In this document: in pieces, positions 8,728 through 49,438 of the stretch | Position numbering within the stretch: the first letter of the stretch is position 1 | Layout: each line of letters begins with the position of its first letter | Assembly (NCBI RefSeq): GCF_000304315.1 | Contig: NC_018485.1 | Span: 1,458,501-1,522,500 of the forward strand | Direction: 5' to 3' | DNA from: Methylocystis sp. SC2 | Lineage (GTDB): Bacteria; Pseudomonadota; Alphaproteobacteria; Rhizobiales; Beijerinckiaceae | Length of the DNA: 64,000 nt | The notes under the pieces: model-generated | Told to the model about the DNA's origin: nothing | The model's database searches: none | Seen by the model: the letters and a program-made list of their open reading frames with translations, nothing else | Made by a program: the position numbers and the translations under genes

Positions 8728-8736
8728 TTCGACCCT

Positions 8737-9093: not shown

Positions 9094-9103
9094 GTTCGTC
9101 CTT

Positions 9104-9526: not shown

Positions 9527-9633
9527 CGCTCAGGTCTCCGCCCCATGTTACGCAAACGATCGATGAACGCCTTTCTTGCATCGCGACGTCGCCGCTGCCT
9601 TGAAACAAGCAAGGCTCTCCTCTCGCGCCGACG

Positions 9634-26244: not shown

Positions 26245-26524
26245 GCATCGCCCGCGCAGCGGACCGGAGACGCCGATTACGTTAGCGCAGGGAACGCCGC
26301 AGCAGGTTTCAGGCGCGGCGCGATCCGCGGCGGAGCGAGGCGGAGGCGCGCCGAGCCGCATGTTAACGCGCGCCGACGGCGGCGAGGCGCTTGCGCTCGT
26401 TGGCCGAGTCAGCGCATTCGTACAGTCAGCTGCAACTTGACGGCGCCCGCCTGGAAGGCGCGGCGGCGATCGAGTAAAACGACGTCCTGTCGATTTTGAC
26501 CAACTCGGAAGCAGGATACGGCCA

Positions 26525-27802: not shown

Positions 27803-27805
27803 TCC

Positions 27806-30577: not shown

Positions 30578-30597
30578 CATCGGAGACGGGGTCGGTG

Positions 30598-30966
30598 GTG
30601 AAGATTTTGCTTGTCGAAGATAATGAGATGAACCGGGATATGCTGTCGCGGCGCCTCAGGCGCAATGGCTATGAAGTCGTGATCGCCATAGACGGCCAGC
30701 AGGGCGTCGAGATGGCCGCCGCCGAAGCGCCCGATCTCATCCTGATGGACATGAGCCTGCCGGTCATCGATGGCTGGGAGGCGGCCCGCCGGGTCAGAGA
30801 AAACGAAGCGACTCGCAAGATTCCGGTGATCGCCCTTACGGCCCATGCGATGGCGGGGGATCGGGAAAAGGCGATCGAAGCGGGCTGCGACGACTATGAC
30901 ACGAAGCCCGTCGAGATCACGCGTCTTCTGGGCAAGATCACGGCGCTGATTGAATCGGGCGCTTAG
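30598..30966 (+). CDS. Stand-alone CheY-like response regulator
   Basis: The 122-residue protein is one receiver domain with the acidic pair in VEDNEMNRD (about residues 7-15), the phospho-acceptor Asp51 (LILMDMSLP), the ALTAHAMAGD switch region (near 80-89) and the conserved lysine in DTKPVE (near 104). GTG 30598 is preferred as the start because it puts the first strand (KILLVEDN) at the N-terminus; an open extension back to 30535 overlaps the kinase gene. This DivK-like shape fits a phosphate shuttle between the hybrid kinase and the downstream cyclase. Confidence 0.87.
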   Translation: MKILLVEDNEMNRDMLSRRLRRNGYEVVIAIDGQQGVEMAAAEAPDLILMDMSLPVIDGWEAARRVRENEATRKIPVIALTAHAMAGDREKAIEAGCDDYDTKPVEITRLLGKITALIESGA

Positions 30967-31109
30967 CATCATCTGATCAATTGTCGTCTCGAAGCTCTCT
31001 TCGGCCATGCGCGGCCCGGTAGCCGTCGAACTCTGGCGATCCCACGGTTGAAAAGTTTATGAGAAACGACTGACGCATATGACGGCGGGCGTTGGCTTTC
31101 TGGGAAAAT

Positions 31110-33871: not shown

Positions 33872-34907
33872 GGCCGGCGATCCTGATGAGCAGCCAACGC
33901 CAGCCGCGGTGAGATATCCTGCATGCGGTTGGCGCGATGATGGTAACCGCCAGCGCTGTCGAGCGACAACTTTTCAAATTCCGCGTTTGCTAAGCCCCGT
34001 GAACGTGGTTTTAGCTCATGTTCGGCCGGGGCAGCTTGAATGAGTATAGATCACAAATCTTTATATGATCCGAATCATAGCCGCACAAATCGGTAAAGAA
34101 GCAAAAATTATCTATTTGAGAGCGCCGCGATAAACGCAGCGTTTATATGCTAATCGAGACATAAAACCGCTCGTCTGGCATTCCAGCCGTGGTAACAACA
34201 TTGTATACATTTTGTTAAGAATTAGACGCAGGCTCAGCGGCCTTATTCCCTTCCAGCACAGGGTGATCGGCGCAAAATAAATCAACGATACATCATATAT
34301 ATTGTTCGTTTCGTCGAATAAGCTTGAGTAACGCCATTTAATCTCGGGTCGCCGGACGACGCGCTGAAATGAAGCGACGCGTCGACCGACGCGACGCCCC
34401 GAAAGGGGGCAATCCTCTCAAATCGCTCGCCCCTCGCCCCAAGCCAAAAATTCTGACGCATTTCCGCATCTCTGAATCATCGAGCGCCGCACCGGCGCCT
34501 TCAATTTATCTGTGTCGACTATGTTAACGTGATAATTGCCCAAAATTTGGCAAGGGGCTGTGTTTATTACAGTCTTAACATTCGTCGGGCGGCTGGCGTA
34601 AGGACCTAAGTAAATACATGTTGACTTGTGCTGTGGTATCGAATAGCGAATATGCTGCAGTGCAACTTGGGCCAAGAAAATTACGGTCGAAGCAGCCTTT
34701 TTTGAGTTCAATCGGAGAGGCAAGGATGCCACCTGACGCCAATTGTTACAATTACGTGTCAACCGCATTCCGCTCAAGGACATCTGGTGAGGCCCTAAGT
34801 ATTTGATGTGCCTAACAAAGAATAATATTTGGGTTTGAGATAGCGCCTCGCTTGTGCGTTGAGTAACGCATGATCCGCAACGATATATATTCAGCAAGAG
34901 TCATGCC
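33872..34907. other. AT-rich gap of about 1 kb upstream of the polyketide synthase gene
   Basis: Base composition is visibly more AT-rich than in the flanking genes, above all at 34040-34360 and 34500-34900, with runs such as CATCATATATATTG. A minus-strand frame of 159 codons (34418-34897) shows no family features and is not called. The stretch probably holds the promoter of the polyketide operon and looks like acquired or decayed DNA. Confidence 0.55.
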
Positions 34908-37900
34908 ATGGACGAACGCAATCTGAATCTTCAGGCATCGGGATTACGCAGCGATGAAGTCGGAGAGTTGGAGCCGATCGCGATCATCGGAGTGGGGTGC
35001 CGTTTCCCTGGAGGAGCCGACAGCCCGGACGCCTATTGGAACCTCCTCGTCTCCGGCCGCCCCGCTATTCGCGACGTTCCGGAAGACCGCTGGAGCATGG
35101 ATCGATTCTTCAACGAAAATCCCGATAAGCCCAACAAGATCTACACCCGCAAGGGCGGCTTTCTCGACGAGGCGGTCCATCGCTTTGACGCCGCGTTCTT
35201 CAACATATCGCCGCGGGAGGCGGTCCATGTCGACCCGCAGCAGCGCCTGCTCATGGAGGTGGCCTGGGAATCTCTGGAGGACGCTGGCGTCGTTCCGGAA
35301 ACGCTCGCGGGCTCCGAAACAGGCGTCTATATCGGCGGCTTCACGCTCGACAGCATGCTCGATCAGCTGAGCCCGCATAATCGGGAAAACATCAGCATCC
35401 ATTCGGGCACCGGCGCGCTGATGACGCTGCTGTCGAATCGGCTTTCCTATTTTTTCGACCTCCGCGGCCCTAGCCTTTCGGTGGACACGGCCTGCTCCTC
35501 TTCGCTCGTGGCCGTGCATCTCGCCTGCCAGGATATTTGGCGTGGCCACGTCTCCATGGCGCTGGCGGGCGGCGTCAACGTCATGCTGCGGCCCGAATAT
35601 CCGATGATCATGGGCAAGGGCCACTTCCTGGCGCCGGACGGCTACTGCAAGAGTTTCGACGAACGCGCCAATGGCTATGCGCGCGGCGAAGGCGCCGGGG
35701 TGGTTCTGCTAAAGCCCTACGCCGCCGCCCTGCGCGACGGCGATCATGTCTACGCGACGATCCGCGGCACGGGCGTCAACCAGGACGGGCGCACCGACGG
35801 CATCACGATGCCCAGCGCGGTGGCGCAGGAGGCGCTGATCCGGCGCGTCTACGCGCAAAGCGGCGTGCCGTTTAGCGAGGTTCGCTACGTTGAGGCGCAT
35901 GGCACGGGGACGCCGGTGGGCGATCCCATCGAAGCCGGCGTTCTTGGACGCACCATTGGCGCCGGACGCGCCGCTGACGACGCCTGTCTGATCGGTTCGG
36001 CGAAATCGACGATCGGTCACCTTGAAGCGGCGGCGGGCGTCGCCGGACTGATCAAGGCGGCGCTCTGTCTCGACCGAGGGGCCGTGCCTCCGCAAGCCAA
36101 TCTGCAAAATCCCAACCCGAAGATTCCCTTCCGGGAGCTGGGCATTCGCTTGCCGACAAGCCTCGAGCCGCTTTCACAGAACGATCGCGACGTTTATTGC
36201 GGGGTCAACTCCTTCGGCTTCGGCGGCACCAATGCGCATGTGGTCCTTCAGCGCGCGGAGAAGCCGCCGTTGGAGGAGAAAAAGGATGGATCGGCGGGAG
36301 AGCAGATCCTCACCCTTTCCGGCCGCGATCCCAAAGTTCTGACCGCTCTCGCCCGCTCCTATGCGCAGATGCTCTCGCGCGGCAGGCGTGCGGCGCTTGA
36401 GGACATTTGCCATTCGGCGCGCGTTCGACGCTCGGCTCACGAATGCCGATTGAGCGTCGTCGCCGCTTCGGCGGCGGAAATGGCGACTGAGCTCGAACAG
36501 TTCGCCGCACATGGCTACAGCGACCACGTCATTCAGGGCAAGGCGCTCCGACGCGCGGAATCGCGACCCGTTTTCGTGTTTACCGGCATGGGGCCCCAGT
36601 GGTGGGGCATGGGCCGGCAATTGCTGGAGAGCGAACCGGTCTTCCGCAAGGCGGCGGAGGAGATCGACGAGATCTTCCGCCCCCTCGCCGGCTTCTCCAT
36701 TTTGGACGAAATGCGCGAGGACAAGAGCCGCTCACGGGTCAAAGAGACGCGTATCGCGCAACCAGCGAATTTCGTCGTGCAGGTCGCCTTGGCCGAACTT
36801 CTCCGTTCCTGGGGCGTCTATCCGGCGGCGGTGGTCGGACACAGCGTCGGCGAGGTGAGCGCCGCCTATGTCTCGGGGGCGCTCAGCCTCGAAGACGCCG
36901 TGGCCGTCTCTTATCATCGCAGCCGACTTCAGCAGCTGGCCGCCGGCAAGGGGCGCATGCTGGCCACCGGCCTCAATCGGGAGCAGGCCGAAAGCATTCT
37001 CGCGTCCTGTCCGGATACGGTTTCGATCGCCGCGATCAACAGCGTTTCAACGGTCACGCTGGCCGGCGACGGCGAAGCGCTGGCGTCGATCGCGGAGCAG
37101 CTCGCCAAGGATGAGATCTTCAATCGATTCCTCGATGTCGAGGTCGCCTATCACAGCCCCCAGATGGAGGAGCTGAAGCCGGAGCTGCGGAAGTCCCTGC
37201 ACGGGCTTCGCCCGCAAACGCCTCATACGCCGCTCTATTCCACCGTAACCGGTCGGCGCGTCGAAGGCCCCGACTTGGACGCGGAATATTGGTGCTCCAA
37301 CATGCGGAAGCCTGTGCTGTTCGCCGACGCGATGGCCGCCATGGTGGCCGACGGGCTGAGCGGCTTCCTCGAAGTCGGCCCGCATCCTGTGCTCTCGACG
37401 TCAATCAAGGAAGTTCTGCGCGCCAGCGAAGCGGGCGGCGTTTCGATCGCCACGTTACGCCGTGAGCATCCCGAGCGCGCGACGGCGCTCGCCGCGCTCG
37501 GCGCGCTTTACGTAAACGGTTATGACGTGAACTGGCGCGCGCTTTCTCCCGCCGGCGCGCGCTTCGTGAAGCTGCCTTTGTATCCCTGGCAGCGAGAATA
37601 TTATTGGAACGAGACGAGCGCGGGCGCGCTCGACCGACTTGGCCGCACGGAGCACCCCCTGTTGGGAAGTCGGGTGTCGTCGCCCACGCCGAGCTGGGAG
37701 CATGATCTCGGCAGGCCATCGATCTCCTATCTCGCCGATCATGTCATCGAGGGAGCGATCGTCTTTCCGGCCGCGGGCTATATCGAGCAGGGTCTGGCGA
37801 TGGCGTCGCTTCTTGACGACGGACAGGCCAGCTACACGCTCGAGGATCTGTCATTCCTCAGACCGCTCGTCTTCCCGACGCTCAAGGATCCGATCGTTCG

Positions 37901-40900
37901 CGCGACCTTCGATCGGAGCTCGAGGGAATTCCACATCTACGGCCAGACGGACGACGAGACCGACTCTTGGACCCTGCACGCGATGGGCCGGGTGCTCGCC
38001 TTGCCGCCGGCGCGGACCGGAGCCGAGTCATTGGCTGAGGTGAAGGAGAGAATGCGGGAGTCGGTCGACGTCGGCGAACTTTATGATCGGTTGGCTGCCT
38101 ACGGACTGGCCTATGGCCCGCATTTCCGCACGGTGCGCAATCTGATGCGGAACGGCGCCGAGATATTGGCGGAGCTGGAGGTCATTCAAGGGCCGTCTGA
38201 GGAGCTTGAGGCCTATCGGCTTCATCCCGCCCTTCTTGACGGCGCCATTCAAACGCTTGTGGGCGCGATCAGCCAGGGCAAGCTTCAGGAATCGACCTAT
38301 CTGCCGGCTGGCGTGGGTCGAGTGGTTTTTCACGCCGGAAGCGGCGCTCCGCTTTGGGCGCACGGACGCGTGATCGATCAGTCCTCGGACGGGTTCGAAG
38401 GCGACCTCATTCTCTATCGCGCCGACGGCAGCGTCGCGGCGGAAGTTCTCGGCGTCAGATGCAAGGCGCTCCACACGAAGAAACTCACGCCAGAGGAGCG
38501 GCTTGAAAGCCGATCCTACGGGCTCGCATGGGAGGTCAAGCCGCTCAGCGAAACCGATCAGCGTGTCGGAGACTGCCTGCTCTTCGCAGCAAATCCGGAC
38601 GCCTCGAAAGAACTCGCGGCCGCGCTTGAGGAGAATGGAGCCAAAGTCCGGACCTTGGACGCGCGGTCGCTTACCGACGTCGTCGCCGCGCGCAAGCTTA
38701 TCGAGGAAAGCCCGCGGCTTCGCGCCATCGTCTTCATGGGAGACTCGAAGCCGAGCGCGGACGATGCCGTGAGCGATCTTGGCGAAGCGAAGCGCCTCCT
38801 CCGCCTCGCGCAAGCGCTCGAAGGCCAGGACGCGGGCGACGATTGCCCCAGACTCTTCGTCGTGACGTCGCTCGCGCAGCCCTTGCCTGGTTCGCAGACG
38901 GTGAATATGGCTCAGGCCGCGCTCATCGGTCTGGCGCGCACCATCGCCGGCGAAAATCCCACTTTGAAATGCACGGCCGTCGACATCGATCCCCTCGATG
39001 AACATCGCGGTCTCCTCGCTCGGCAAATCCTCAGCGACGATCCTGAAACCGAGGTCGCGTTGCGGGGCGACGAGCGGCGCGTGCAGCGGCTCGTTCCGGC
39101 CGCCGCCCTCCGCCAGGAGGACGGCGAGGTCGAGACGCCCACCGTCTCCGCCGCCACCGTGGACGCCTTTCGCTTGACGCGAGGAACCGAGAACCGCCTC
39201 GAGAGCCTGCGCTTCGAGGAGGCCGCCCGGACCGCCCCCGCCGCCGGCGAGATCGAAATCGAGATCAAGGCCGCCGCGCTGAACTTCAAGGATGTGCTGA
39301 AAGTCTTGGGCATGTTGCCCGCCAAGGCTCTTGAGGGCTCCTATCACGGCCCAGCGCTCGGCATGGAGGCGGCGGGCGTCGTCACCGCCGTCGGCGAAGG
39401 GGTGACGGCCTATAAGGTCGGCGACGAGCTGGTGGGTTCGTTCAAAGGCTCGTTCAGCTCCCACGTGCGCGTTCCCGCCGATCACGTGCTCGCCATGCCC
39501 AAGCCGTCGTCGCTGACGTTCGAAGAGGCGGCCAGCCTGCCCGTCATCTTCATGACGGCCTATTACGCCCTGCACGACATCGCACGGCTGCGCGCCGGCG
39601 AAACCGTGCTCATTCACGCCGCAGCCGGGGGCGTGGGGCTCGCGGCGATCCAGGTTGCGAAATGGATCGGCGCGCGCATCTTCGTCACGGCGGGAAGCGA
39701 GGCGAAACGCGACTATCTGCGCACGCTGGGCGTGGAGCAAGCCTTCGACTCGCGCAGCCTCGAATTCGCCGACGGCGTCCTGAAATCGACGGGGGGCCGA
39801 GGCGTCGACGTCGTCCTCAACTCCATCGCGGGAGAGACCTTCGTCAAAAGCTTGGAAGTGACGGCTCCTTTTGGAAGATTCGTGGAGATCGGCAAGCGCG
39901 ACATCGTCGAGAACGCGCGGCTGCCGCTCCTGCCTTTCAACAAGAACCTCCTGTTCGCGGCGGTCGATCTCGATCGACTCATGGCCGAACAGCCCAATGC
40001 GATCCGAGAGCTTCTCGCTCAAATCTGGGATCGGTTCGAGCAGGGCGATTTCCGGCCCACGCCCCTCACTGTCTTCCCGTTGCACGAGGCTTCGGACGCG
40101 TTCCGGTTCATGGCGCAATCGAAGCAAACGGGTAAAATCGTCCTGTCCTTCGCCGACACTGCGCGCGTCGAAGTCGTGCCGGCGGAAGTCGAGAAAAAGC
40201 TGATCCAACCCAGCGCCACTTATATGGTCACCGGCGGCTTCAGCGGCTTCGGCCTCAACGCCGCGCGCTGGCTGGCGCAGCAAGGCGCGGAGACTCTGGT
40301 CCTCGTGAGCCGCAGCGGCGCCGCCTCCAGCGAGGCGCAACGCGCGGTGATGGCGCTCCAAGCGCAAGGCGTCAACGTCGTCAGCATCGCCGCCGACGTC
40401 AGCATCGAAGCCGACGTGGAAGCCATGATGGCGCGGATCGACCGGGAGCTTCCGCCGCTGCGCGGCGTGGTGCATTCGGCGGCCGTATTGGACGACACCG
40501 TGCTTTCCGGCCTCACCGACGAACGGTTCGACGCGGTCTATCGCCCCAAGGCGGTCGGCGCTTGGAACCTGCACCGGATGACCCGTAACGCGCCGCTGGA
40601 CTTCTTCCTGTGTTTTTCGTCCATTTCGGCGCTGATCGGCAACCCTGGGCAAGGGAACTACGTCGCGGCCAACGTCTTCCTTGACATGCTCGCGCACTAC
40701 CGCCAGAGGCTCGGCCTTCCCGGTCAAAGCGTCAACTGGGGCGCGATTGGCGACGTCGGAATGCTCACGCGCGACAAGATGGTCGCGCAGCATCTCGCAC
40801 GGGCAGGCATCCAGCCAATTTCCTCCACGGAAGCGCTCGAGGACATGGAAGCGACTCTGCTTCAGGGAACGGCGCAATTCGCCTATGTCGACGTCGACTG

Positions 40901-41270
40901 GGCCAAGTGGGCGTCCACCCATCCGGCGAGTTCGACTCCCCGCTTCGCGCCGCTGGTCAGCGAGGCCCGCGACGAGTCCGACAGCGTCATCGACCGGGTG
41001 CGCGCTGAACTGGCGCAGATCGAACCGGAACAGCGTGGTGAGCACATTGTCGGCATCGTTCGTCGCGTCGTCGGGGAGACTCTTCGCATTCCCGGCGATC
41101 GCATCGACATAGACGCTCAACTGTCGGACATGGGCATCGACTCGCTGATGGCCGTGGAACTGCAGGTCGCTGTCAAGGCGACGCTGGGCGTCGAAGTTTC
41201 TCTCATGGAGCTCATGAAGGGACGAACCGTCGCGTCGCTCGGTCGAGATTTGCTCAAGCGTCTAAGCTGA
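34908..41270 (+). CDS. Highly reducing type I polyketide synthase, one complete module
   Basis: The 2120-residue synthase has domains in the order KS-AT-DH-ER-KR-ACP. KS (about 20-450) has the active cysteine Cys196 (DTACSSS) and EAHGTGTPVGDP. AT (about 545-850) has Ser646 in GHSVGE, and its VAYHS motif matches neither the usual malonyl HAFH nor methylmalonyl YASH. DH (about 925-1195) has His945 (HxxxGxxxxP) and Asp1111 (LLDGAIQ). ER (about 1450-1755) has AAAGGVGLAAIQVAK. KR (about 1765-1960) has GGFSGFG and Tyr1918. ACP has Ser2079 (GIDSLM). No thioesterase or methyltransferase motif is seen. With all reductive domains it should build a saturated chain iteratively. AAGAG precedes the ATG. 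It is the first gene of a lipid-type operon. Confidence 0.95.
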   Translation: MDERNLNLQASGLRSDEVGELEPIAIIGVGCRFPGGADSPDAYWNLLVSGRPAIRDVPEDRWSMDRFFNENPDKPNKIYTRKGGFLDEAVHRFDAAFFNISPREAVHVDPQQRLLMEVAWESLEDAGVVPETLAGSETGVYIGGFTLDSMLDQLSPHNRENISIHSGTGALMTLLSNRLSYFFDLRGPSLSVDTACSSSLVAVHLACQDIWRGHVSMALAGGVNVMLRPEYPMIMGKGHFLAPDGYCKSFDERANGYARGEGAGVVLLKPYAAALRDGDHVYATIRGTGVNQDGRTDGITMPSAVAQEALIRRVYAQSGVPFSEVRYVEAHGTGTPVGDPIEAGVLGRTIGAGRAADDACLIGSAKSTIGHLEAAAGVAGLIKAALCLDRGAVPPQANLQNPNPKIPFRELGIRLPTSLEPLSQNDRDVYCGVNSFGFGGTNAHVVLQRAEKPPLEEKKDGSAGEQILTLSGRDPKVLTALARSYAQMLSRGRRAALEDICHSARVRRSAHECRLSVVAASAAEMATELEQFAAHGYSDHVIQGKALRRAESRPVFVFTGMGPQWWGMGRQLLESEPVFRKAAEEIDEIFRPLAGFSILDEMREDKSRSRVKETRIAQPANFVVQVALAELLRSWGVYPAAVVGHSVGEVSAAYVSGALSLEDAVAVSYHRSRLQQLAAGKGRMLATGLNREQAESILASCPDTVSIAAINSVSTVTLAGDGEALASIAEQLAKDEIFNRFLDVEVAYHSPQMEELKPELRKSLHGLRPQTPHTPLYSTVTGRRVEGPDLDAEYWCSNMRKPVLFADAMAAMVADGLSGFLEVGPHPVLSTSIKEVLRASEAGGVSIATLRREHPERATALAALGALYVNGYDVNWRALSPAGARFVKLPLYPWQREYYWNETSAGALDRLGRTEHPLLGSRVSSPTPSWEHDLGRPSISYLADHVIEGAIVFPAAGYIEQGLAMASLLDDGQASYTLEDLSFLRPLVFPTLKDPIVRATFDRSSREFHIYGQTDDETDSWTLHAMGRVLALPPARTGAESLAEVKERMRESVDVGELYDRLAAYGLAYGPHFRTVRNLMRNGAEILAELEVIQGPSEELEAYRLHPALLDGAIQTLVGAISQGKLQESTYLPAGVGRVVFHAGSGAPLWAHGRVIDQSSDGFEGDLILYRADGSVAAEVLGVRCKALHTKKLTPEERLESRSYGLAWEVKPLSETDQRVGDCLLFAANPDASKELAAALEENGAKVRTLDARSLTDVVAARKLIEESPRLRAIVFMGDSKPSADDAVSDLGEAKRLLRLAQALEGQDAGDDCPRLFVVTSLAQPLPGSQTVNMAQAALIGLARTIAGENPTLKCTAVDIDPLDEHRGLLARQILSDDPETEVALRGDERRVQRLVPAAALRQEDGEVETPTVSAATVDAFRLTRGTENRLESLRFEEAARTAPAAGEIEIEIKAAALNFKDVLKVLGMLPAKALEGSYHGPALGMEAAGVVTAVGEGVTAYKVGDELVGSFKGSFSSHVRVPADHVLAMPKPSSLTFEEAASLPVIFMTAYYALHDIARLRAGETVLIHAAAGGVGLAAIQVAKWIGARIFVTAGSEAKRDYLRTLGVEQAFDSRSLEFADGVLKSTGGRGVDVVLNSIAGETFVKSLEVTAPFGRFVEIGKRDIVENARLPLLPFNKNLLFAAVDLDRLMAEQPNAIRELLAQIWDRFEQGDFRPTPLTVFPLHEASDAFRFMAQSKQTGKIVLSFADTARVEVVPAEVEKKLIQPSATYMVTGGFSGFGLNAARWLAQQGAETLVLVSRSGAASSEAQRAVMALQAQGVNVVSIAADVSIEADVEAMMARIDRELPPLRGVVHSAAVLDDTVLSGLTDERFDAVYRPKAVGAWNLHRMTRNAPLDFFLCFSSISALIGNPGQGNYVAANVFLDMLAHYRQRLGLPGQSVNWGAIGDVGMLTRDKMVAQHLARAGIQPISSTEALEDMEATLLQGTAQFAYVDVDWAKWASTHPASSTPRFAPLVSEARDESDSVIDRVRAELAQIEPEQRGEHIVGIVRRVVGETLRIPGDRIDIDAQLSDMGIDSLMAVELQVAVKATLGVEVSLMELMKGRTVASLGRDLLKRLS

Positions 41271-41329
41271 AAGCGACTGACCGGTCCGGTTATCAGATCT
41301 GCACCTACTGAGCTCGAGGAACATAAGAA

Positions 41330-42361
41330 ATGCGCATTGATGCCGTGAAGGCGGCCTTGCCGTCGCGCAAGCTGTCGAATGAAGACGTCCTTCAGATTGT
41401 CCGGGAAAGCAGCGAAGCGACGTATGACGGAGATCTCGACGCGGCGATAAAGAGGATCGAGAGCTGGCTCGCGTATAGCGGAGCCGAGACGCGTTACCTG
41501 CTTGAGGAAAGCGAAACGCCGTTGAGCGTCTTGACCGGCGCCATCAACGCCGCGCTGGAAGAAGCGAAATGCACCAAAGAGGAAATTGACACGCTCGTCT
41601 ATGTTGGCGTCGGACGCGGATTCATCGAGCCGGCCGGCGCTTATCTCGTGGCGCATGCGCTGGGCTTCAAGAACGCGCATTGCTTCGACGTGCTGGACGC
41701 GTGCAACAGCTGGTCGCGGGGCGCGCAGATCATCTATCACTTCATGCAAACGGGAAGCTGCAAGCGCGCGATGATCGTCAACGCCGAGTTCAGCGTCACC
41801 GGCAATCGGCTCGGCAATTTCGCCCTGCGGCATGAGGGAGAGTTGAACTGGACGTTCCCGACATACACGATCGGCGAAGCGGCCACGGCGACGATCTTTT
41901 CAGCCGATCCGGGCAATGAGTGGAAGTTCCGATTCCGCTCGCGGCCAGATCTCGCGGATCTGTGCACCATCCCTGTCAACGGCTTCCAGGGCTATTGCAA
42001 TCAGACGGAGCGCATCGGCAAGAACGGCAACCGGTTCACGTCCTACGGCTATGAATTGTTCGAGGCGGCGGGCCCCGAACTCATCCAGGTGTTCCAGGAA
42101 CTCAATCCGCCGCTTGACAAGCTTCGGGCGATTTTCCCGCACGCCGCGTCGAAGAAGGCGGGCGACGACCTCGCCGACATGTTCAGCCTGCGGCATTTGT
42201 TGTCCAATGTTTATCCGCGCTGCGGCAACCTCGTTTCCTGCTCGGTGCCAGCGGCGATGGCCTTCGCGGTCGAAGAACAGCGCGTCGCGCGCGGAGACCT
42301 GCTCGCCGCGGTCGTCGCCAGCGCAGGCATGTCGTTCTCGGCATATTCCTTCGTCTACTGA
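41330..42361 (+). CDS. KAS III-like (FabH/thiolase-fold) condensing enzyme
   Basis: The 343-residue protein has the KAS III catalytic triad: Cys125 in VLDACNSW, His271 in IFPHAASK and Asn300 in RCGNLVSC. The late motif ending in AGMSFSAY replaces the usual GAGLTWG of FabH, and length and spacing fit the broader KAS III-like group used in secondary pathways for starter formation, extra condensation or chain release. It lies 59 bases after the synthase gene, which has no thioesterase, so it may prime the chain or release it as an ester or ketone. This role is inference. The next element is a short frame with a good ribosome site. Confidence 0.85.
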   Translation: MRIDAVKAALPSRKLSNEDVLQIVRESSEATYDGDLDAAIKRIESWLAYSGAETRYLLEESETPLSVLTGAINAALEEAKCTKEEIDTLVYVGVGRGFIEPAGAYLVAHALGFKNAHCFDVLDACNSWSRGAQIIYHFMQTGSCKRAMIVNAEFSVTGNRLGNFALRHEGELNWTFPTYTIGEAATATIFSADPGNEWKFRFRSRPDLADLCTIPVNGFQGYCNQTERIGKNGNRFTSYGYELFEAAGPELIQVFQELNPPLDKLRAIFPHAASKKAGDDLADMFSLRHLLSNVYPRCGNLVSCSVPAAMAFAVEEQRVARGDLLAAVVASAGMSFSAYSFVY

Positions 42362-42369
42362 AGGAGTTC

Positions 42370-42465
42370 ATGAGGATGCTCACGACGCCGCCCGCCATCG
42401 TCATTCGCATGGGTCCCGGTGCTTCGTTCCGGCGACCGTTACTTAAAAAGAGGCGGGTGAGATGA
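42370..42465 (+). CDS. Possible 31-residue basic peptide
   Basis: An ATG at 42370 follows AAGGAG by three bases, and the frame runs 31 codons to a TGA that overlaps the next gene's ATG (ATGA). The peptide ends in a very basic stretch (FRRPLLKKRRVR). It may serve only to couple translation of the deacetylase gene, or be a remnant. There is no homology that I recognise. Confidence 0.35.
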   Translation: MRMLTTPPAIVIRMGPGASFRRPLLKKRRVR

Positions 42466-43367
42466 AGGACGACCGCATCGTCGCGATCTGCGCCGACGAT
42501 TACGGCCTGTCCTACGGGGTGAGCATGGGCATTCTCGAGGCGCTGGACGCCGGCCGATTGACGGCCGTCTCGGCGCTGGTGAATGGCCCACGCTGGCCCG
42601 CCATGGGGGTCGAATTGCGCCGGCGATGCCGGAACGCGGACGTCGGCCTCCATTTCAACCTCACGCTGGGCCAACCGCTGGGACCGATGCCGACCTTCGC
42701 TTCGGAGGGGAGCTTTCCGCCGGTCTCGACCGTCGTCCGCCGCGCCATGCGCCGCAAGCTTCCCTTGGCCGAGATACGTGCGGAGATCGATCGCCAGCTG
42801 GACCGTTTCGAAACGGTGATGGGCCGCGAGCCGGATTACGTCGACGGCCATCAACATGTGCATGGGCTGCCAGGCGTCCGCGACGCGTTGATCGAGGCCT
42901 TGGCGGCCCGAGGGCTCGCCGGTCGGGTTTGGCTGCGCGACGCCGGAGACGAGCTGCATCGCATCATCCTGCGCGGCGCCCATGCGCCCAAAACGCTCGC
43001 CCTGGCGCTCGCTGTTAAAGGCCTGTCCTCGGGTTTTCGCCGCGCCGCGCTGCGTCAGGGCTTCGCGACCAATCAGGGCTTCTCCGGCCACTCGGTTTTC
43101 GATCCGGGGAAGGACTACGCACGCGCCTTCGAGACCTATCTTCGCGCGCCGGGGCGCCGCCATCTCGTCATGTGCCATCCCGGCCATGTCGATGACGAGC
43201 TCAGGGCCCAGGACTGGGTGACCGTCACCCGCGAGCAGGAGCTCGCCTTCCTGCTCTCGCCGCGTCTACCGGACATGCTGGAAGCGCGAGGATTAAGGCT
43301 TGCGCGACTCAGCGAGGCCCCACCGCGCCAATCGCCGGGCGGCGGAAGCGAGAGCGCGACTCAATGA
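42462..43367 (+). CDS. YdjC/ChbG/HpnK-family carbohydrate or lipid-sugar deacetylase
   Basis: The 301-residue protein has the metal-binding ADDYG motif (near residues 11-15), the substrate loop VGLHFNLTLGQPL (near 60-72) and the catalytic DGHQHVHGLPGV motif (near 128-139). Members remove N-acetyl groups from chito-oligosaccharides or, as HpnK, from the glucosamine head of hopanoids. It resembles HpnK-type enzymes in length and in the final MCHPGHVDDEL motif. In this operon it would deacetylate an N-acetylhexosamine placed on the polyketide lipid by the downstream glycosyltransferase. That substrate is inferred; the fold and chemistry are well supported. Confidence 0.87.
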   Translation: MKDDRIVAICADDYGLSYGVSMGILEALDAGRLTAVSALVNGPRWPAMGVELRRRCRNADVGLHFNLTLGQPLGPMPTFASEGSFPPVSTVVRRAMRRKLPLAEIRAEIDRQLDRFETVMGREPDYVDGHQHVHGLPGVRDALIEALAARGLAGRVWLRDAGDELHRIILRGAHAPKTLALALAVKGLSSGFRRAALRQGFATNQGFSGHSVFDPGKDYARAFETYLRAPGRRHLVMCHPGHVDDELRAQDWVTVTREQELAFLLSPRLPDMLEARGLRLARLSEAPPRQSPGGGSESATQ

Positions 43368-43389
43368 GCGACGCCCTGGGGATGTCCGC

Positions 43390-44310
43390 ATGAGCGAGGG
43401 CGCGAAACGGGCCGTCGTCATTACCGGCGCGTCGACGGGCATCGGCGAAGCCTGCGTCAGGCTGCTTGTCGAAAAGGACTTCCTGGTTTTCGGCTCGGTG
43501 CGCACGGCCGCCGACGCCGAGCGTCTGAAGGCGCAATTCGGCGAAAATTACGCGCCCCTCCGCTTCGATGTGACCGACGGCGATGAGGTCGCGCGTGCAG
43601 CCGTTGCGGTCGAGGAGCAGCTTCAAGGCGCGACGCTGGTGGGGCTCGTCAACAACGCCGGAATGGCCGTGGCGGGACCGCTGCTGCATGTGCCGATCGA
43701 GGAGCTCCGCCGCCAGCTTGAGGTCAATGTCATTGGCCAGATGCGGGTGACGCAGGCCTTCGCGCCGCTGCTCGGCGCCCGCGCCTCTCAGGGAGCGCCG
43801 CCGGGCCGCATCGTCAATATGAGTTCGGTGGCGGGCCGGATGGTCGGGCCGTTGATGGGCCCCTACAGCGCCTCGAAATTCGCGCTCGAAGCCATGTCCG
43901 ACGCGCTCCGCCGCGAATTGGCGGTCTATGGGATCGCGGTCGTTGTGATCGAGCCCGGCATCATCGCCACGCCGATCTGGGACAAGGCCGAATCGGCCGC
44001 CTTCGACGCCTTCGACCGGACAATCTACGGCCCAGCCGCGCGCCGTGTGCAGAAATGGGCGGTGGACCAGGGGCGCACCGCCGTCGGGCCGGAGCGTGTG
44101 GCCGAAGCGGTCCATCGCGCGCTGGTCGGGTCGCGGCCGCCGCTGCGCATCCTCGTGCTCGGCGGCAGCGCCTTCCACTACTACGCCCAGCTCCTCATAC
44201 CGCCGCGCCTCATGGACTGGCTGATGGCCCGCTATTTCGGTTTCGATCAAGTTCGGCGAACGCTGGTCTCGAGCCGCGCCGCCAAAAAAGAAGTGATCCA
44301 ATGGCCCTAG
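43390..44310 (+). CDS. Short-chain dehydrogenase/reductase
   Basis: The 306-residue protein is a classical SDR: cofactor loop TGASTGIGEA (near 12-21), NNAG (near 90), catalytic Ser in MSSVAG (near 141) and Tyr-Lys in YSASK (near 158-162). The last 60 residues form an extra tail (hydrophobic with basic patches, near 255-300) that may hold the enzyme at the membrane or lipid. It could set the oxidation state of a chain hydroxyl or ketone. ATG 43390 is chosen because the cofactor loop then has its usual distance from the N-terminus. It overlaps the glycosyltransferase gene by ten bases. Confidence 0.87.
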   Translation: MSEGAKRAVVITGASTGIGEACVRLLVEKDFLVFGSVRTAADAERLKAQFGENYAPLRFDVTDGDEVARAAVAVEEQLQGATLVGLVNNAGMAVAGPLLHVPIEELRRQLEVNVIGQMRVTQAFAPLLGARASQGAPPGRIVNMSSVAGRMVGPLMGPYSASKFALEAMSDALRRELAVYGIAVVVIEPGIIATPIWDKAESAAFDAFDRTIYGPAARRVQKWAVDQGRTAVGPERVAEAVHRALVGSRPPLRILVLGGSAFHYYAQLLIPPRLMDWLMARYFGFDQVRRTLVSSRAAKKEVIQWP

Positions 44311-45668
44311 ACCGCCCTAAGATCCTTATCGCGACCTTTGGCACGCTGGGCGATGTGAATCCGTTTATTGGATTGGCGCGCGCCCTGCAGCGGCAAGGCT
44401 GCGTCCCGGTCATCGCCACGTCAGAAGAATATCGGGATCTCGTCGCGCGAGAAGGGCTGGACTTCCGGCCTATGCGACCGGATCTGGGAGAAATCTCATC
44501 TCGGCTCAATATGCAGAAGGGCGAGATCGCGACCAAAATGTCGCGGAATAAAAGATTTCTATTTGATCAAGTCATGTTTCCGCATCTGCGCGACGCCTAC
44601 AACGACGTCATGGGACTGACAAAGGATGTTGATGGAATCGTGACGCATTGTTTAGCGTTCGGCGCCAAGGCTGCTGCGGAACAGCGGGGCCTTCCTCTCT
44701 TCAACGTGTTTCTTTCGCCCATGCTGCTGTTTTCTGCGGACAATCCTCCGTTAGGGACCCCGGCGCCGTTCATGACGTCGCGGTCGCCGCTCGCCGTCGG
44801 ATATAACTGGCTCCTGATCAAAACGCTCGAAGCGGCGTTGACTCTCCTGGCGTCGCCGCTCGCGCGATTCAGAAATGAAGTGGGTCTGCCCGGCGTACGT
44901 GGTTTTGAGCTTTTGGTGGGCGCTCCGCGCGCAGCCGCGACGATCGGACTATTCAGCTCGCTCCTGATGCCCCCGGTTTCCCAGCGGACAAGGTCGGAAA
45001 TTATTGTTGGACATAGTTTCCACGATGGGCGCCACACGCCGGCGGGCGCATCCGACCCGGAGGGGCTTCCGTCTGATTTAACAGACTTTTTGGACTCAGG
45101 GTCCGAACCTATCGTCTTCACGCTTGGGAGCCTCGTCGCGATCGATCGGATAGACTATTTCCGAGCCTGTTCGATCGCGGCTCGGTCGCTCAAAAGGCGT
45201 GCTGTTCTTTTGGCGGATAGCGCCGATGTGGACAAATTGCGCCAAGAGATGTCTTCCGAGATTTCCGTGCACGGCTACGTCCCGCATTCGCTGCTGTTTC
45301 CCAGATGTTGCGCTGTGGTTCATCACGGCGGAATGGGATCTACGGGTCAGGCGCTTCGCGCCGGCAAGCCACAACTTGTAACCCCGTTTTGTAACGACCA
45401 ATTCGATATCGCTGAGCGCCTGAGGCGACTTGGCGTTGCGCGTACGCTCAAGGCGAAAGACGTCTCCGCTGATCGATTGGCGCAGAACATTGAACGGCTA
45501 TTGTCATCGGCTAGTTATACTGACTGTGCGCGGGCGGTCGCTGATGAAATTGCATTAAACGATGGCGCGGAGTCCGCCGCGGCGTTAATATCCCAAAGGC
45601 TCAGGCGTCCAGGACCAGGAATAAGCGGTTGCGTTGTCGAAGGTGAGCCTGGAACAGAGCGCGTCTGA
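44301..45668 (+). CDS. UGT-type (GT1) glycosyltransferase
   Basis: The 455-residue protein shows the GT-B fold of family GT1. The N-terminal acceptor domain starts KILIATFGTLGDVNPFIGLA (near 7-26), with the flexible loop after the first strand. The C-terminal donor-binding domain has VHGYVPHSLLFPRCCAVVHHG followed by GMGSTGQALRAGKPQL, close to the plant-type signature that binds a UDP-sugar. Relatives glycosylate lipids, sterols, polyketides and macrolides. Here it probably attaches a sugar to the reduced polyketide chain. It overlaps the SDR gene by ten bases and precedes the exporter genes by 36. Confidence 0.9.
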   Translation: MALDRPKILIATFGTLGDVNPFIGLARALQRQGCVPVIATSEEYRDLVAREGLDFRPMRPDLGEISSRLNMQKGEIATKMSRNKRFLFDQVMFPHLRDAYNDVMGLTKDVDGIVTHCLAFGAKAAAEQRGLPLFNVFLSPMLLFSADNPPLGTPAPFMTSRSPLAVGYNWLLIKTLEAALTLLASPLARFRNEVGLPGVRGFELLVGAPRAAATIGLFSSLLMPPVSQRTRSEIIVGHSFHDGRHTPAGASDPEGLPSDLTDFLDSGSEPIVFTLGSLVAIDRIDYFRACSIAARSLKRRAVLLADSADVDKLRQEMSSEISVHGYVPHSLLFPRCCAVVHHGGMGSTGQALRAGKPQLVTPFCNDQFDIAERLRRLGVARTLKAKDVSADRLAQNIERLLSSASYTDCARAVADEIALNDGAESAAALISQRLRRPGPGISGCVVEGEPGTERV

Positions 45669-45704
45669 GGATTGCGGCGGCAATGTCTAAATCCCGATAA
45701 CGGC

Positions 45705-46739
45705 ATGGCGGCGTGTAAAATGAACCACGAATTTCGTTTCGGAGTGTCGGATGGCGCGGCCCTGCCCCGGGCGGAACGTCTGCTGCGGAATCGCATTTCC
45801 CTGCGGTTGATCCTTCAAATCATTCTCGTCGCAGCGTTAACCATCGGCGTGCCGCTTTTCGTCTGGGCAAGATATTTCGTGGGCGCCGACGAAGCGCCCG
45901 CCAAACAGATAAAGGAGACGGCGTGGGCTCCCGCAGCCCTCGGCGTCGGCGCGCTGGGCTGGATCGAACCGCGCTCGCGACTCATCCGAGTCTCGAACGA
46001 GGCGGCCGCGACCGGCGGCGTCGTCGGCGAAATACTGGTGCGGGAAGGCCAGTCCGTCAAGGCGGGGACCCGGATCGCGGTGCTCTCCGACTGGCGCCGC
46101 CGCCAAGCGGAAGTGGCGCTCGCCGCGGCGGAAATCAGCGCCGCTAAGGCGCGTCACCTTGCAGCTGAGGCCGAACTCGAGAGCGCCCAGCGGGACGCCG
46201 AGCGCAAGAAAAGCCTGTACAAATCCGGCTCCGCCACGCTTTCCGTGGTGGATGGCGTCGAGTTGCGCCTGAAAAAGGCCAAGGCGGATGTCGACGTTGC
46301 GACGGCGAGCATTCAGCAGAGCGAGGCCAATCTGGAGCTCAAACAGGCGCAGCTGTCCCAGGCGGTGTCGACCGCGCCGATCGACGGCGTCATCATCAAG
46401 ATCAATGCGCGCCCCGGCGAGCGCATCGGTCCCAATGGTGTGGCCGATATTGCGAATCTCAATGAGCTTGACGTTGTGGCTGAGGTTTACGAGACCGACA
46501 TTCCACGCGTGAAAGTCGGTCAGAAGGCGATCGTGAAACTTCCGGAGCGGAGCGCGCCTTATCCGGCAAAGGTGCGTGAGATCGCTTTTCTCGTTCGCAA
46601 AAACCGCGTCAACGACGCCGATCCGCTCGCGGACCGCGACAATAGGATCGTTGAGGTGCGATTGACGTTGGAGCGTCCAGGGATCGAACAGCTTTGGCAC
46701 CAGCTCTTCCGTCAGGTTCAGGTGCAAATAGAACGGTGA
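45705..46739 (+). CDS. DevB-like periplasmic adaptor (membrane fusion protein)
   Basis: The protein of about 344 residues has one N-terminal membrane helix (LRLILQIILVAALTIGVPLF) and a biotinyl-lipoyl-like half motif (GGVVGEILVREGQSVKAGT). A coiled-coil hairpin rich in Ala, Glu and Lys (about 130-215) and the second half motif (APIDGVIIKINARPGERI) complete the HlyD/DevB architecture. It would bridge the DevC-DevA transporter to an outer-membrane TolC channel. No start has a good ribosome site: TTG 45672, ATG 45705 and ATG 45720 are all possible. Its stop overlaps the GTG start of the permease gene. Confidence 0.83.
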   Translation: MAACKMNHEFRFGVSDGAALPRAERLLRNRISLRLILQIILVAALTIGVPLFVWARYFVGADEAPAKQIKETAWAPAALGVGALGWIEPRSRLIRVSNEAAATGGVVGEILVREGQSVKAGTRIAVLSDWRRRQAEVALAAAEISAAKARHLAAEAELESAQRDAERKKSLYKSGSATLSVVDGVELRLKKAKADVDVATASIQQSEANLELKQAQLSQAVSTAPIDGVIIKINARPGERIGPNGVADIANLNELDVVAEVYETDIPRVKVGQKAIVKLPERSAPYPAKVREIAFLVRKNRVNDADPLADRDNRIVEVRLTLERPGIEQLWHQLFRQVQVQIER

Positions 46740-47908
46740 GCGGTTTGTCTCCGGCGCTGTTCGCCGCTCGACTGGCGTGGCGCCAGCTCATATACGACAG
46801 GCCCAAACTGCTCGCCGCCACCTTGGGCGTGCTGTTCGCCTGCGTGCTCGTGTTCATGCAGCTTGGCTTTCGAGATTCGCTTTACACCAGCGCGTCTTCC
46901 GCGCCGCTGAAAATGCAGGGCCAGCTGTTTCTGCTCCACAAGCAGACCGAAGCCCTCTGGCGGCCCGTCTCCTTCGATCGAAGCATCCTGATGCGCGCCT
47001 TGGGCCTTCCGGCGGTTCGGCGAGTCGTGCCCCTCTACATGTCGCTCGGACAATTCAAGAATATGGATACCCATATCCAGCGGACGCTGATGATTTACGG
47101 GTATGATCCCACCGCCGAGCTCATTCATATCGACGACTTTGCGGCTTTCAGGTCCGAGCTGCAGCGTCAGGACACGGCGCTATTCGACGTGACCTCCCGC
47201 CCGGAGTTTGGTCCGATAAAAGAGCTGATCGCCTCCGGGCGCGACATCACCGAAATAAACGGTCGCAAGGTAAAGCTCGTCGGCACCTTCCATATGGGCA
47301 CCACTTTCGCCGCCGACGGCAATGTCGTGATGAGCGATCTCAACTTTCATCGCGTTTTTCCAATGCGATCCCTTGATCAGATCGATATCGGCTTCGTCCT
47401 GTCGGCGCCGGGCGCCGACATCGCCGCGACGCAAGCCGCACTCTTGCGACTCGTCGGGCAGGAGGTGCAAGTCTTGACCTATGAAGAGCTCGTCCGCTTC
47501 GAGCAGGCCTACTGGGAGAATTCGGCGCCGCTTGGCTTCATTTTTGGTTTCGGCACGCTCATGGGCCTGATCGTCGGCATGGTGATCGTCTATCAAATTT
47601 TGTTCACGGATATCGGCAACAACATTCCCCAATACGCCACTCTGGTGGCGATGGGATACAGCCAATCCTATCTCCGTAACATTGTCTTTGCTTCCTCCAT
47701 TTATCTGGCGGTATTCGGATTTCTGCCAGGCATGGCGCTGTCCACGTTGCTCTATCAGGTGGCGGAGCGCTCTATTTTCATCCCGTTCCCTATGACCCTC
47801 GAGCGTATCGCCAGCGTCTTCTTCTTTATCCTGACAATGTGCGCGCTGGCTGGCTTGCTGGCGATACGCAAATTGAAATCGACGGATCCGGCCGACATGT
47901 TCTCATGA
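46736..47908 (+). CDS. DevC-like ABC exporter permease
   Basis: The 390-residue protein has the MacB/FtsX-type topology: one N-terminal membrane helix (LLAATLGVLFACVLVFMQLGF, near 22-42), a large periplasmic domain of about 220 residues and three helices near the C-terminus. Length and the motif QLGFRDSLY match DevC of the DevBCA exporter. GTG 46736 overlaps the preceding stop (GTGA) and gives the standard DevC N-terminus. Such exporters push lipids or peptides from the inner leaflet or periplasm through TolC rather than importing. The end overlaps devA (ATGA). Confidence 0.87.
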   Translation: MSGLSPALFAARLAWRQLIYDRPKLLAATLGVLFACVLVFMQLGFRDSLYTSASSAPLKMQGQLFLLHKQTEALWRPVSFDRSILMRALGLPAVRRVVPLYMSLGQFKNMDTHIQRTLMIYGYDPTAELIHIDDFAAFRSELQRQDTALFDVTSRPEFGPIKELIASGRDITEINGRKVKLVGTFHMGTTFAADGNVVMSDLNFHRVFPMRSLDQIDIGFVLSAPGADIAATQAALLRLVGQEVQVLTYEELVRFEQAYWENSAPLGFIFGFGTLMGLIVGMVIVYQILFTDIGNNIPQYATLVAMGYSQSYLRNIVFASSIYLAVFGFLPGMALSTLLYQVAERSIFIPFPMTLERIASVFFFILTMCALAGLLAIRKLKSTDPADMFS

Positions 47909-48573
47909 GCATGATCGACGTGAAAGGTTTGAATTTCGCTTTTGGACAAGGCGAGTTGCGTCGTCAGGTCCTGACAAACATTCATCTTTCCATCGAAACC
48001 GGCGAAATCGTTATTCTCACCGGGCCCTCTGGCTCCGGAAAGACGACGCTGTTGACCATCCTGGGAGGACTGAGGCTCGCGACCTCCGGAAGCGTCGTGG
48101 TGCTCGGCGAACAACTGGTGCGCAGCGAAACCCGCACACGCATCGCCGTGCGGCGGCAGACTGGATATATTTTTCAGCAGCACAATCTCTTCCTCTCGCT
48201 GACCGCCACAGAGAACGTCTGCATGGCGCTTGAGCTGCACGATTGCTTTTCTGAAAAGGAACGGGTCGGGCTCGCGCATCAAATTCTGACTCAGGTCGGA
48301 CTAGAGGAGCGTCTGGAGTATCGACCCCAGCAGCTTTCCGGCGGACAGCGCCAGCGCGTCTCGATCGCGCGCGCCTTGGTTTCCCGACCGAAGATCGTGC
48401 TCGCGGATGAGCCGACCGCGTCTCTCGATAAGAATAGCGGCCATGAGGCGGTCGAGATATTAAGAAGTCTCGCCAAGCAGAATGGAACGACGATCCTGAT
48501 CGTCACCCATGATTATAGAATACTCGATATTGCGGATCGCATTGTTAATCTCGAGGACGGGATCATCAAATAA
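47905..48573 (+). CDS. DevA-like ABC exporter ATPase
   Basis: The 222-residue ATPase has Walker A GPSGSGKTTLL (near 35-45), the Q-loop (IFQQHNLF, near 83-90), signature LSGGQRQRVSIARAL (near 140-154) and Walker B IVLADEPTASLD (near 160-171). It is of the MacB/LolD/DevA type, which powers mechanotransmission-type exporters. The coupled start (ATGA) with the permease gene and the adaptor upstream make a complete DevBCA set apart from the TolC channel. It is the last gene of the operon; a palindromic repeat follows 97 bases later. Confidence 0.92.
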   Translation: MSMIDVKGLNFAFGQGELRRQVLTNIHLSIETGEIVILTGPSGSGKTTLLTILGGLRLATSGSVVVLGEQLVRSETRTRIAVRRQTGYIFQQHNLFLSLTATENVCMALELHDCFSEKERVGLAHQILTQVGLEERLEYRPQQLSGGQRQRVSIARALVSRPKIVLADEPTASLDKNSGHEAVEILRSLAKQNGTTILIVTHDYRILDIADRIVNLEDGIIK

Positions 48574-48669
48574 CAATTCGCGCCAAGCGTCGCCGATTTG
48601 CTTGCGACCGCCCCCCGCAGTCGACGCGCTTGTCGCACACGCATTTTCCGGCGCGCGGCGATGCGCCCT

Positions 48670-48784
48670 TAGAGCAGGTTCCAAAAAAGTTGACGGACTT
48701 TTTCGATGAGAACCTGCTCCAACGTTTTGATTTTGAGTGATTCCTTTTCGATCACATGATTCCATGTGATCGGGAAGCGCTCTA
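48670..48784 (+). repeat. RIME-like palindromic repeat, copy B
   Basis: This 115-bp element is in the same orientation as copy A and about 90% alike by eye, with both dyads (AGCAGGTTC/GAACCTGCT and GATCACATG/CATGTGATC). Its right end, GCTCTA, gives the TAG stop of the minus-strand gene beside it. Copies A and B bracket the polyketide operon. Confidence 0.9.
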
Positions 48785-49438
48785 GGCCTCGCCCTTCGCG
48801 AGCAGATCCCCATACGCGGCTTGGTCGATGACGCCGCCGGCGGCCGCCACACGCTCTCGATCAAGAGATGAAAGCGCATCTTGAACGATGTCGATCCGCT
48901 TCCATCCCGGCAGCGGCGCTTCATCTCCCTCTGCGGCGACATATTTGGACTGGGCGATTTTCTGGTGGGGATGAATGTAGCGCGGACAATTCACCCACAC
49001 GCTCTCGACGTCGACGCCGACGACGAATAGCGCGCCGGGATAAGAAGCGAGCAGCGACGCTTCGCGCAAGAGTCTTGCCTCGCCCTGCACGCGAAGCCGA
49101 TTGGGCGTGACGAAATCGATGAACAGCAGGCCAACCTTGCTCGTTTCCGCCAGATTTCCGGCGGAGTAAAACATACCGTTGCCGTCGAACCACGGGAAAA
49201 TGAGCGAGCTTTGACCGACGACGCGAACGAAGCCCGGAGCGCCGCCCTTATAGGAGACCGTCGGACGGCCGGCGGGATCGAGCGTCGAAAGAAAGAACAT
49301 GTCGCGAGACTGGATGAATTCGACCTCATGGGGAGCAAATTCGGCGTGCATGACGCCGCCCTCCATCAAATCGGCGAGGCGGCGCGTATCGAATTCGTCT
49401 TGAAGCTTGCGGTGCTCGGCGCCGTATAATTTTGACAT
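48782..49438 (-). CDS. Pyridoxamine 5'-phosphate oxidase-family FMN protein
   Basis: The 218-residue protein has the split-barrel FMN-binding pattern of the PNPOx-like family, with a core FIQSRDMFFLSTLDPAGRPTVSYKG (near residues 45-69) and LIFPWFDGNGMFYSAGNL. The conserved C-terminal stretch VWVNCPRYIHPHQ (near 152-164) is typical of uncharacterised pyridoxamine-phosphate-oxidase-related oxidoreductases. GGAGAGAG just before ATG 49438 decides the start; the frame is open further upstream without homology. The stop codon is supplied by the palindromic repeat, so the original C-terminus may have been slightly different. Substrate unknown. Confidence 0.82.
   Translation of the reverse strand: MSKLYGAEHRKLQDEFDTRRLADLMEGGVMHAEFAPHEVEFIQSRDMFFLSTLDPAGRPTVSYKGGAPGFVRVVGQSSLIFPWFDGNGMFYSAGNLAETSKVGLLFIDFVTPNRLRVQGEARLLREASLLASYPGALFVVGVDVESVWVNCPRYIHPHQKIAQSKYVAAEGDEAPLPGWKRIDIVQDALSSLDRERVAAAGGVIDQAAYGDLLAKGEA

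Follow-up and report, generated by a model that had tools for sequence, protein, structure and literature searches.

A patchily distributed polyketide synthase–DevBCA gene cluster of Methylocystis and the probable origin of its central cassette by replacement of an older gene

Organization of the locus

The stretch of DNA analysed here, referred to as the window, comprises 64,000 nucleotides of the genome of Methylocystis sp. SC2, and at positions 34908–48573 it carries eight intact, closely spaced genes, all on the + strand, in frame and without internal stops (Table 1; the coordinates depend on the start codons selected in this analysis). A first-pass annotation had counted eight or nine genes, and eight open reading frames (ORFs) were found. 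The gene content it proposed, that is, a reducing polyketide synthase (PKS), a KAS III-like enzyme, a YdjC protein, an SDR, a GT1 glycosyltransferase and DevBCA, is borne out by Pfam and NCBIfam, and its operon layout holds as well; the genes are close-set on one strand in an order that recurs in five other Methylocystis genomes. The PKS and KAS III genes are separated by 59 bases, KAS III and YdjC by 100, and YdjC and SDR by 22; SDR and GT overlap by 10 bases, GT and DevB lie 51 bases apart (3 if DevB starts at 45672), and the DevB/DevC and DevC/DevA pairs overlap by 4 bases each.

Upstream of the PKS, an ORF on the opposite strand (34418–34897, −) has no Pfam family, and a promoter scan, which is not informative for Methylocystis, gave no match at the locus. 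On the 3' side of DevA, positions 48574–48790 form strong hairpins (folding z −4.9; as stable in 0 of 200 shuffles).

Table 1. Features of the locus, with positions in the window
Feature	Position	Strand	Evidence
Long intergenic stretch upstream of the PKS, probable promoter region	34044..34907	+	Sequence read
One-module, fully reducing type I PKS, KS-AT-DH-ER-KR-ACP, 2120 aa	34908..41270	+	Pfam; orthologs
KAS III-like enzyme of a distinct subfamily, Cys125/His271/Asn300	41330..42361	+	Profile searches, alignments
Shortened stump of a lost ABC1-aminotransferase fusion gene	42362..42417	+	Match to the start of the L036 fusion
Carbohydrate deacetylase of the YdjC/ChbG type, opening the replacement cassette	42462..43367	+	Pfam, 188 bits
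SDR-family reductase	43390..44310 (ORF 43300–44310)	+	Pfam, 152 bits
GT1 glycosyltransferase, last gene of the cassette	44301..45668 (ORF 44055–45668)	+	Family profiles, solved-structure match
DevB membrane-fusion protein	45720..46739 (ORF 45672–46739)	+	TIGR02971
DevC permease	46736..47908 (ORF 46694–47908)	+	TIGR01185
DevA ATPase	47905..48573 (ORF 47839–48573)	+	TIGR02982

The polyketide synthase and its relatives

The motifs of the KS (DTACSSS, EAHGTGT and the GHLEAAAG stretch), the AT (GHSVGE), the DH (HVIEGAIVFP), the KR (SSISALIGNPGQGNY) and the ACP (DSL) are all intact in the translation of the PKS, so the module looks active and is predicted to be fully reducing. Pfam finds neither a thioesterase nor a reductase release domain in the protein. 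Full-length orthologs with 92–93% identity are present in the loci L037, L038 and L039.

The first-pass annotation had drawn a parallel with the heterocyst glycolipids of cyanobacteria and proposed a tree of the KS domain as a check. The HglEA protein used for this purpose was picked in Chlorogloeopsis (L138) by its domain content and length (1560 aa), the hglEA gene being given as 4626 bp in PMC11804610. The KS of the window is 33% identical to that of HglEA, which lies outside the window's group in the tree, beyond branches with 98/98 and 100/98 support, and the HglE-type kinship therefore fails. The PKS of the window and its ortholog belong to an unresolved, weakly supported group (91/85) together with PKSs of Persicobacter, Deinococcus and Streptomyces, one of Methylosinus, one of Cupriavidus and two that adjoin capsule genes, presumably RkpA-like. 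The midpoint root of this tree serves for drawing only; matches spanning fewer than 330 query residues were left out, among them the Thioclava PKS, and the N-terminal half-KS row of the M. iwaonis PKS was dropped.

The presence of capsule-associated PKSs in this group bears on a different view, according to which the locus makes a capsule or K-antigen lipid anchor in the manner of rkp-1, the K-antigen region of rhizobia, where an oxoamine synthase (a class I/II aminotransferase) adjoins the RkpA PKS. The KS does group, if weakly, with PKSs found beside capsule genes and a class I/II aminotransferase, and RkpA resembles the window's enzyme in being reducing and contained in a single polypeptide. 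However, neither a class I/II aminotransferase nor a capsule gene is among the eight, and the cluster has an exporter of its own in DevBCA. An rkp-1 assignment was rejected on the absence of the oxoamine synthase among the eight genes, and we regard the capsule anchor as highly improbable.

The KAS III-like enzyme

The product of the second gene aligns with a solved FabH-type enzyme across the Cys, His and Asn residues, and the residues C125, H271 and N300 do not vary across alignments of 12 and of 18 relatives. Nevertheless, it scores 68.7 bits with the FabH equivalog model TIGR00747, below the cut-off of 292.1, and a KAS III profile places OleA (121 bits) slightly above FabH (116 bits). OleA is a two-chain condensing enzyme. 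An AlphaFold model of the protein (mean pLDDT 86) gave KAS III-type enzymes for all 50 PDB matches listed; since Foldseek ranks OleA, PqsD and FabH nearly level, the structural comparison does not set condensing enzymes apart from the rest of the KAS III group, nor condensation from acyl transfer. All three have the fold and the Cys-His-Asn triad in common with the window's protein, but the identities in the structural alignments listed are 18–22%.

Among 149 sampled genomes of the family, the close KAS III occurs in that of the window only, and 56 others have KAS III matches of approximately 22–32% identity that were taken as FabH-like. Outside Methylocystis, the closest KAS III of the scan (52%) is in Chlorogloeopsis fritschii (L041, 8406–14948), where it precedes a fatty acyl-AMP ligase with an ACP and a 529-residue protein to which Pfam assigns no family. 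In Paraburkholderia and Burkholderia (L034, L044–L064, L066, L067 and L074), a KAS III of the same subfamily is directly followed by a hybrid histidine kinase, an arrangement that looks like a signal synthase paired with its sensor; a 29% relative of this kinase has the same place beside the KAS III in L043.

The YdjC-SDR-GT cassette and the stump of an older gene

The third protein of the cluster matches the Pfam YdjC family (187.7 bits, cut-off 29.7) and a solved chitooligosaccharide deacetylase (94 bits), and the genome of the window holds a second copy that is 69% identical. The label “YdjC/HpnK deacetylase” given earlier stands in its first half; the hopanoid deacetylase HpnK was rejected, as the score with TIGR03473 is 64.4 bits and the cut-off 232.6. 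For the GT1, the nearest solved structure by sequence is a sterol 3-beta-glucosyltransferase (E 1.6e-24), and the protein is also similar to macrolide glycosyltransferases.

One fusion-type relative, the locus L036 of the metagenome bin G164, has kept the PKS, the KAS III (94%) and DevBCA, and in place of YdjC-SDR-GT it carries between them an ABC1-kinase/class III aminotransferase fusion and an AraC regulator. The fusion gene (7042–9813) is an ORF of 923 residues, or approximately 870 from the start selected here. Between the window and G164, the PKS, KAS III, DevC and DevA are 94–98% identical and DevB 85%.

Traces of the fusion are found in the strains that carry the YdjC cassette. Beyond the KAS III stop, the DNA of L035, L037, L038 and L039 resembles the beginning of the L036 fusion gene (80, 89, 96 and 82% identity, respectively) over 154–158 bases of that gene, and the matches all end at its position 157 or 158; the stump of the window consists of 43 bases at 81%, followed by the final 17 bases (100%) before the same end point. 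Codon 100 of the 923-residue ORF ends at position 158, directly after the residues RMGP, and the breakpoint falls within a GP..KxGQ stretch that is conserved in four aligned fusions, including those of Streptomyces and Cupriavidus. Elsewhere in the window, and in the tested stretches of the other carriers, no remnant of fusion or AraC DNA was found at E <= 1e-5. Since a stump with a common end point survives in the YdjC-type strains, the three genes probably replaced the fusion and the AraC gene once, between an older PKS–KAS III pair and DevBCA. Inheritance of the eight genes as a single pathway seems unlikely, as YdjC-SDR-GT appear to be a replacement within an older set.

Synonymous divergence points in the same direction to some extent. 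The dS of the cassette (0.14–0.23) is lower than that of the PKS and KAS III (0.29–0.37) in three of three comparisons, a contrast that is only partial because the dS of DevBCA (0.22–0.34) overlaps that of the GT. A KAS III tree was built from the window, 31 of 49 loci and two FabH rows, 18 rows of Burkholderia and Paraburkholderia having been dropped for thinning. In it the fusion-type L036 is nested, with weak support, among YdjC-type strains and the window lies outside, which suggests that the cassette probably moved between strains as well and makes its history less certain.

A donor of the cassette was not found among the Methylocystis copies of YdjC and GT, four YdjC loci and the plasmid matches. 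YdjC is present at E <= 1e-30 in 38 of 39 Methylocystis genomes, the copies outside the cassette being 57–80% identical, and GT copies of 48–49% identity turned up in four out of five further Methylocystis that were sampled; in G114 the YdjC and GT copies lie approximately 106 kb apart. The four YdjC loci fetched have no relative of the GT or the SDR at E <= 1e-6, and the best plasmid match of the SDR (49%) is from Granulicella.

The fusion gene outside Methylocystis

An ABC1-aminotransferase fusion (ABC1 being a UbiB-like kinase) lies directly 3' of a KAS III of the same subfamily in two Streptomyces loci (L040, 10993–13683, and L042, 11041–13689) and in Cupriavidus (L069, 11083–13695), and these fusions are 47–49% identical to that of L036. 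The Streptomyces and Cupriavidus clusters share with the window a KAS III of 38–49% identity and contain the fusion gene that the window probably lost, but within 10 kb nothing there matches DevB, DevC or the full length of the PKS; L040 has a FAAL-ACP instead, and L069 has FabA-like, KS and MMPL genes. The full fusion is present in one of 39 Methylocystis genomes, and five more have matches confined to its first 100 codons. It was found in none of 398 Pseudomonadota genomes at E <= 1e-150 (two candidates per genome scored among the matches listed, in a search without its own positive control), and 80% of the gene is present in none of 72,556 plasmid records. No published name for clusters with the KAS III and the ABC1-aminotransferase, nor an account of the fusion, was found in the literature searched.

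The DevBCA exporter

All three exporter proteins exceed the curated NCBIfam cut-offs in the order B-C-A (DevB, TIGR02971, 170 bits, cut-off 129; DevC, TIGR01185, 374, cut-off 290; DevA, TIGR02982, 321, cut-off 296), which confirms the complete DevB-DevC-DevA set named in the earlier annotation. The DevC of the window is the single match of its model in the whole 3.77 Mb genome. A search of the genome for TolC-type outer membrane proteins gave 20 matches to the OEP domain; in many cases two fall in one protein, and of the 20 one is inside DevB itself and one is below the cut-off.

A DevC tree had also been proposed as a check. The window, M. rosea and L036 form a clade (100/99), to which the successive sisters are M. 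iwaonis (100/100; 68% identity) and Pseudoroseomonas (100/97). This clade is on the side that holds all the cyanobacterial rows (100/99), and 24 DevC-like proteins of the window's own order are on the opposite side (100/99); here too the midpoint root is for drawing only. The nearest relative in the tree is the exporter of a prodiginine-type cluster. The M. iwaonis locus (L096) is considered of this type because PigD, PigE and PigA are above their cut-offs and a PigJ-like protein is present, below its own (382 of 900 bits). Its biosynthetic core is wholly unlike that of the window, and no prodiginine model is above its cut-off among the eight genes (for the PKS, SDR and DevA, among the best 25 families listed). 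Having such a sister, the exporter does not name its cargo.

Other neighbourhoods of DevBCA are varied. On the M. iwaonis plasmid (L096, 2010–21898), the prodiginine-type genes are followed by a DUF1295 gene and DevBCA, and a Thioclava plasmid (L098, 1–9817), judged by annotation, likewise has prodiginine-type genes, a DUF1295 gene and DevBCA; DevBCA may be a dedicated prodiginine exporter in both. The Thioclava gene set is similar to that of L096, but its DevC is distant from the window's (36%, on a long branch). In the Chlorogloeopsis contig C54, DevC adjoins a PKS outside an hgl-like island, and in a Gloeothece plasmid (L183, 140–28252) a FAAL, an ACP, two PKSs, a sulfotransferase and DevBCA lie within 29 kb.

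Distribution and conservation

The close KAS III and its cluster are carried by seven of 39 Methylocystis genomes, including the window's. All eight genes are found in the same order in five of the six other carriers (L035, L037, L038, L039 and G156), and in the four L-numbered loci the amino-acid identity per gene is 88–98%. In L035 (G177) the PKS is cut by the contig end and YdjC is in two pieces, possibly owing to a frameshift in a fragmented bin.

In comparisons of the window with G155, G156 and G169 (the analysis took in four of the six other carriers), the dN/dS of each of the eight genes is 0.04–0.30, which indicates that the whole gene set is kept by selection there; the cassette (0.19–0.30) is somewhat higher than DevC and DevA (0.04–0.08). 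With these low values and the recurrence in five other Methylocystis, the order of the eight genes is not due to chance. In G155 and G156 the cluster is near the same flank genes (26463–32752 in the window) in the opposite orientation, a local inversion seen on comparing positions 26463–48577 of the window; the G164 fragment holds part of this flank in the same arrangement, and none of it is in the 40 kb fetched from G169. A megablast search of 72,556 plasmid records, from which records very near the window's genome were possibly excluded, gave no match to the cluster.

Proposed product and alternatives

The idea of an exported glycosylated lipid, put forward in the first-pass annotation, stands in its general form, given the gene content, the operon layout and the DevBCA family. 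We place at about even chances the reading of the locus as a patchily spread lipid synthesis-and-export cluster whose product would be an exported amphiphilic (amino)glycolipid. The PKS would act iteratively and build a reduced acyl chain on its ACP, and the KAS III-like enzyme would remove this chain by condensation or acyl transfer, most likely to give a beta-keto lipid. The SDR could then reduce the ketone to an alcohol, to which the GT1 would add a sugar, perhaps an N-acetylhexosamine; YdjC would strip the N-acetyl group from the sugar, although its substrate may be another one, and DevBCA with a TolC-type channel would carry the product outwards. The features counted in favour of a lipid are the full reduction, the lack of a cyclising or oxidising enzyme among the eight genes, the proximity of the GT to sterol glucosyltransferases and the OleA score above that of FabH.

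It has to be considered, however, that the product could be a diffusible secondary metabolite (a glycosylated polyketide, an antibiotic or a signal), in which case DevBCA would act as an exporter of the drug type and the YdjC-GT pair would serve in sugar tailoring or self-protection. The position of the closest DevBCA within a prodiginine-type cluster, the similarity of the GT to macrolide glycosyltransferases and the patchy distribution all speak for this, as does the case of Anabaena, where some DevBCA paralogs are needed for drug resistance according to PMC8277102. Nevertheless, the single module is fully reducing and none of the eight genes supplies a thioesterase, a cyclase or an oxidase, a combination that suggests a plain alkyl chain, and among solved structures the GT comes closest to a sterol glucosyltransferase; we consider a diffusible metabolite rather unlikely.

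The heterocyst glycolipid parallel proposed at first is, at best, one of function. The hgl islands with DevBCA/HgdBC exporters and the window have in common a PKS, a reductase (the SDR in the window), a glycosyltransferase and an exporter of the DevBCA family, and the DevC of the window is on the cyanobacterial side of its tree, apart from the DevC-like proteins of its own order, as would be expected if a pathway of that type had been inherited from cyanobacteria and made a cyst-coat glycolipid. Yet the window adds a KAS III and YdjC and has one reducing PKS, not a PUFA-synthase-like set, and the HglC, HglD and HglA partners (KS-CLF, KR-DH and PfaD-like), whose domains are present in L138, are absent among the eight genes. 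Descent from the heterocyst-glycolipid pathway was rejected, as the KS tree puts HglEA outside, and the sugar cassette looks secondary. The cyst-coat role finds no support and fits poorly with a cluster carried by seven of 39 Methylocystis genomes, assuming that cyst formation is typical of the genus. We judge such an inherited pathway very improbable.

Returning to the exported lipid, in the older form of the cluster the ABC1-kinase/aminotransferase fusion would aminate a chain of this kind. From the genes involved, we read the swap as a putative change of head group, from an amine to an (amino)sugar, on a PKS-made lipid. A more specific version, somewhat short of an even chance, is that one PKS–KAS III–DevBCA chassis serves two chemistries, from ketone to amine and from ketone to amino-sugar glycoside, both of which would give cationic exported amphiphiles.

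Implications

No description of such a cluster in Methylocystis, or of DevBCA with prodiginines, was recognised in the literature searched, outside which most subscription papers lay. For the DevBCA family, the prodiginine-type genes that adjoin the closest relative found mean that this exporter is an unsafe sign of a glycolipid. The two natural forms of the cluster, with near-identical PKS, KAS III, DevC and DevA, make a clean comparison of products possible. If the head-group switch is true, both forms coexist in one genus with the breakpoint still readable, and the KAS III with the fusion would be a new family of amino-lipid clusters across Actinomycetota and Pseudomonadota. If the general reading is right, methanotrophs would produce and export a glycolipid or aminolipid that has not been described, and the locus would illustrate how a polar head can be changed by the swap of a three-gene cassette while chain synthesis and export are kept.
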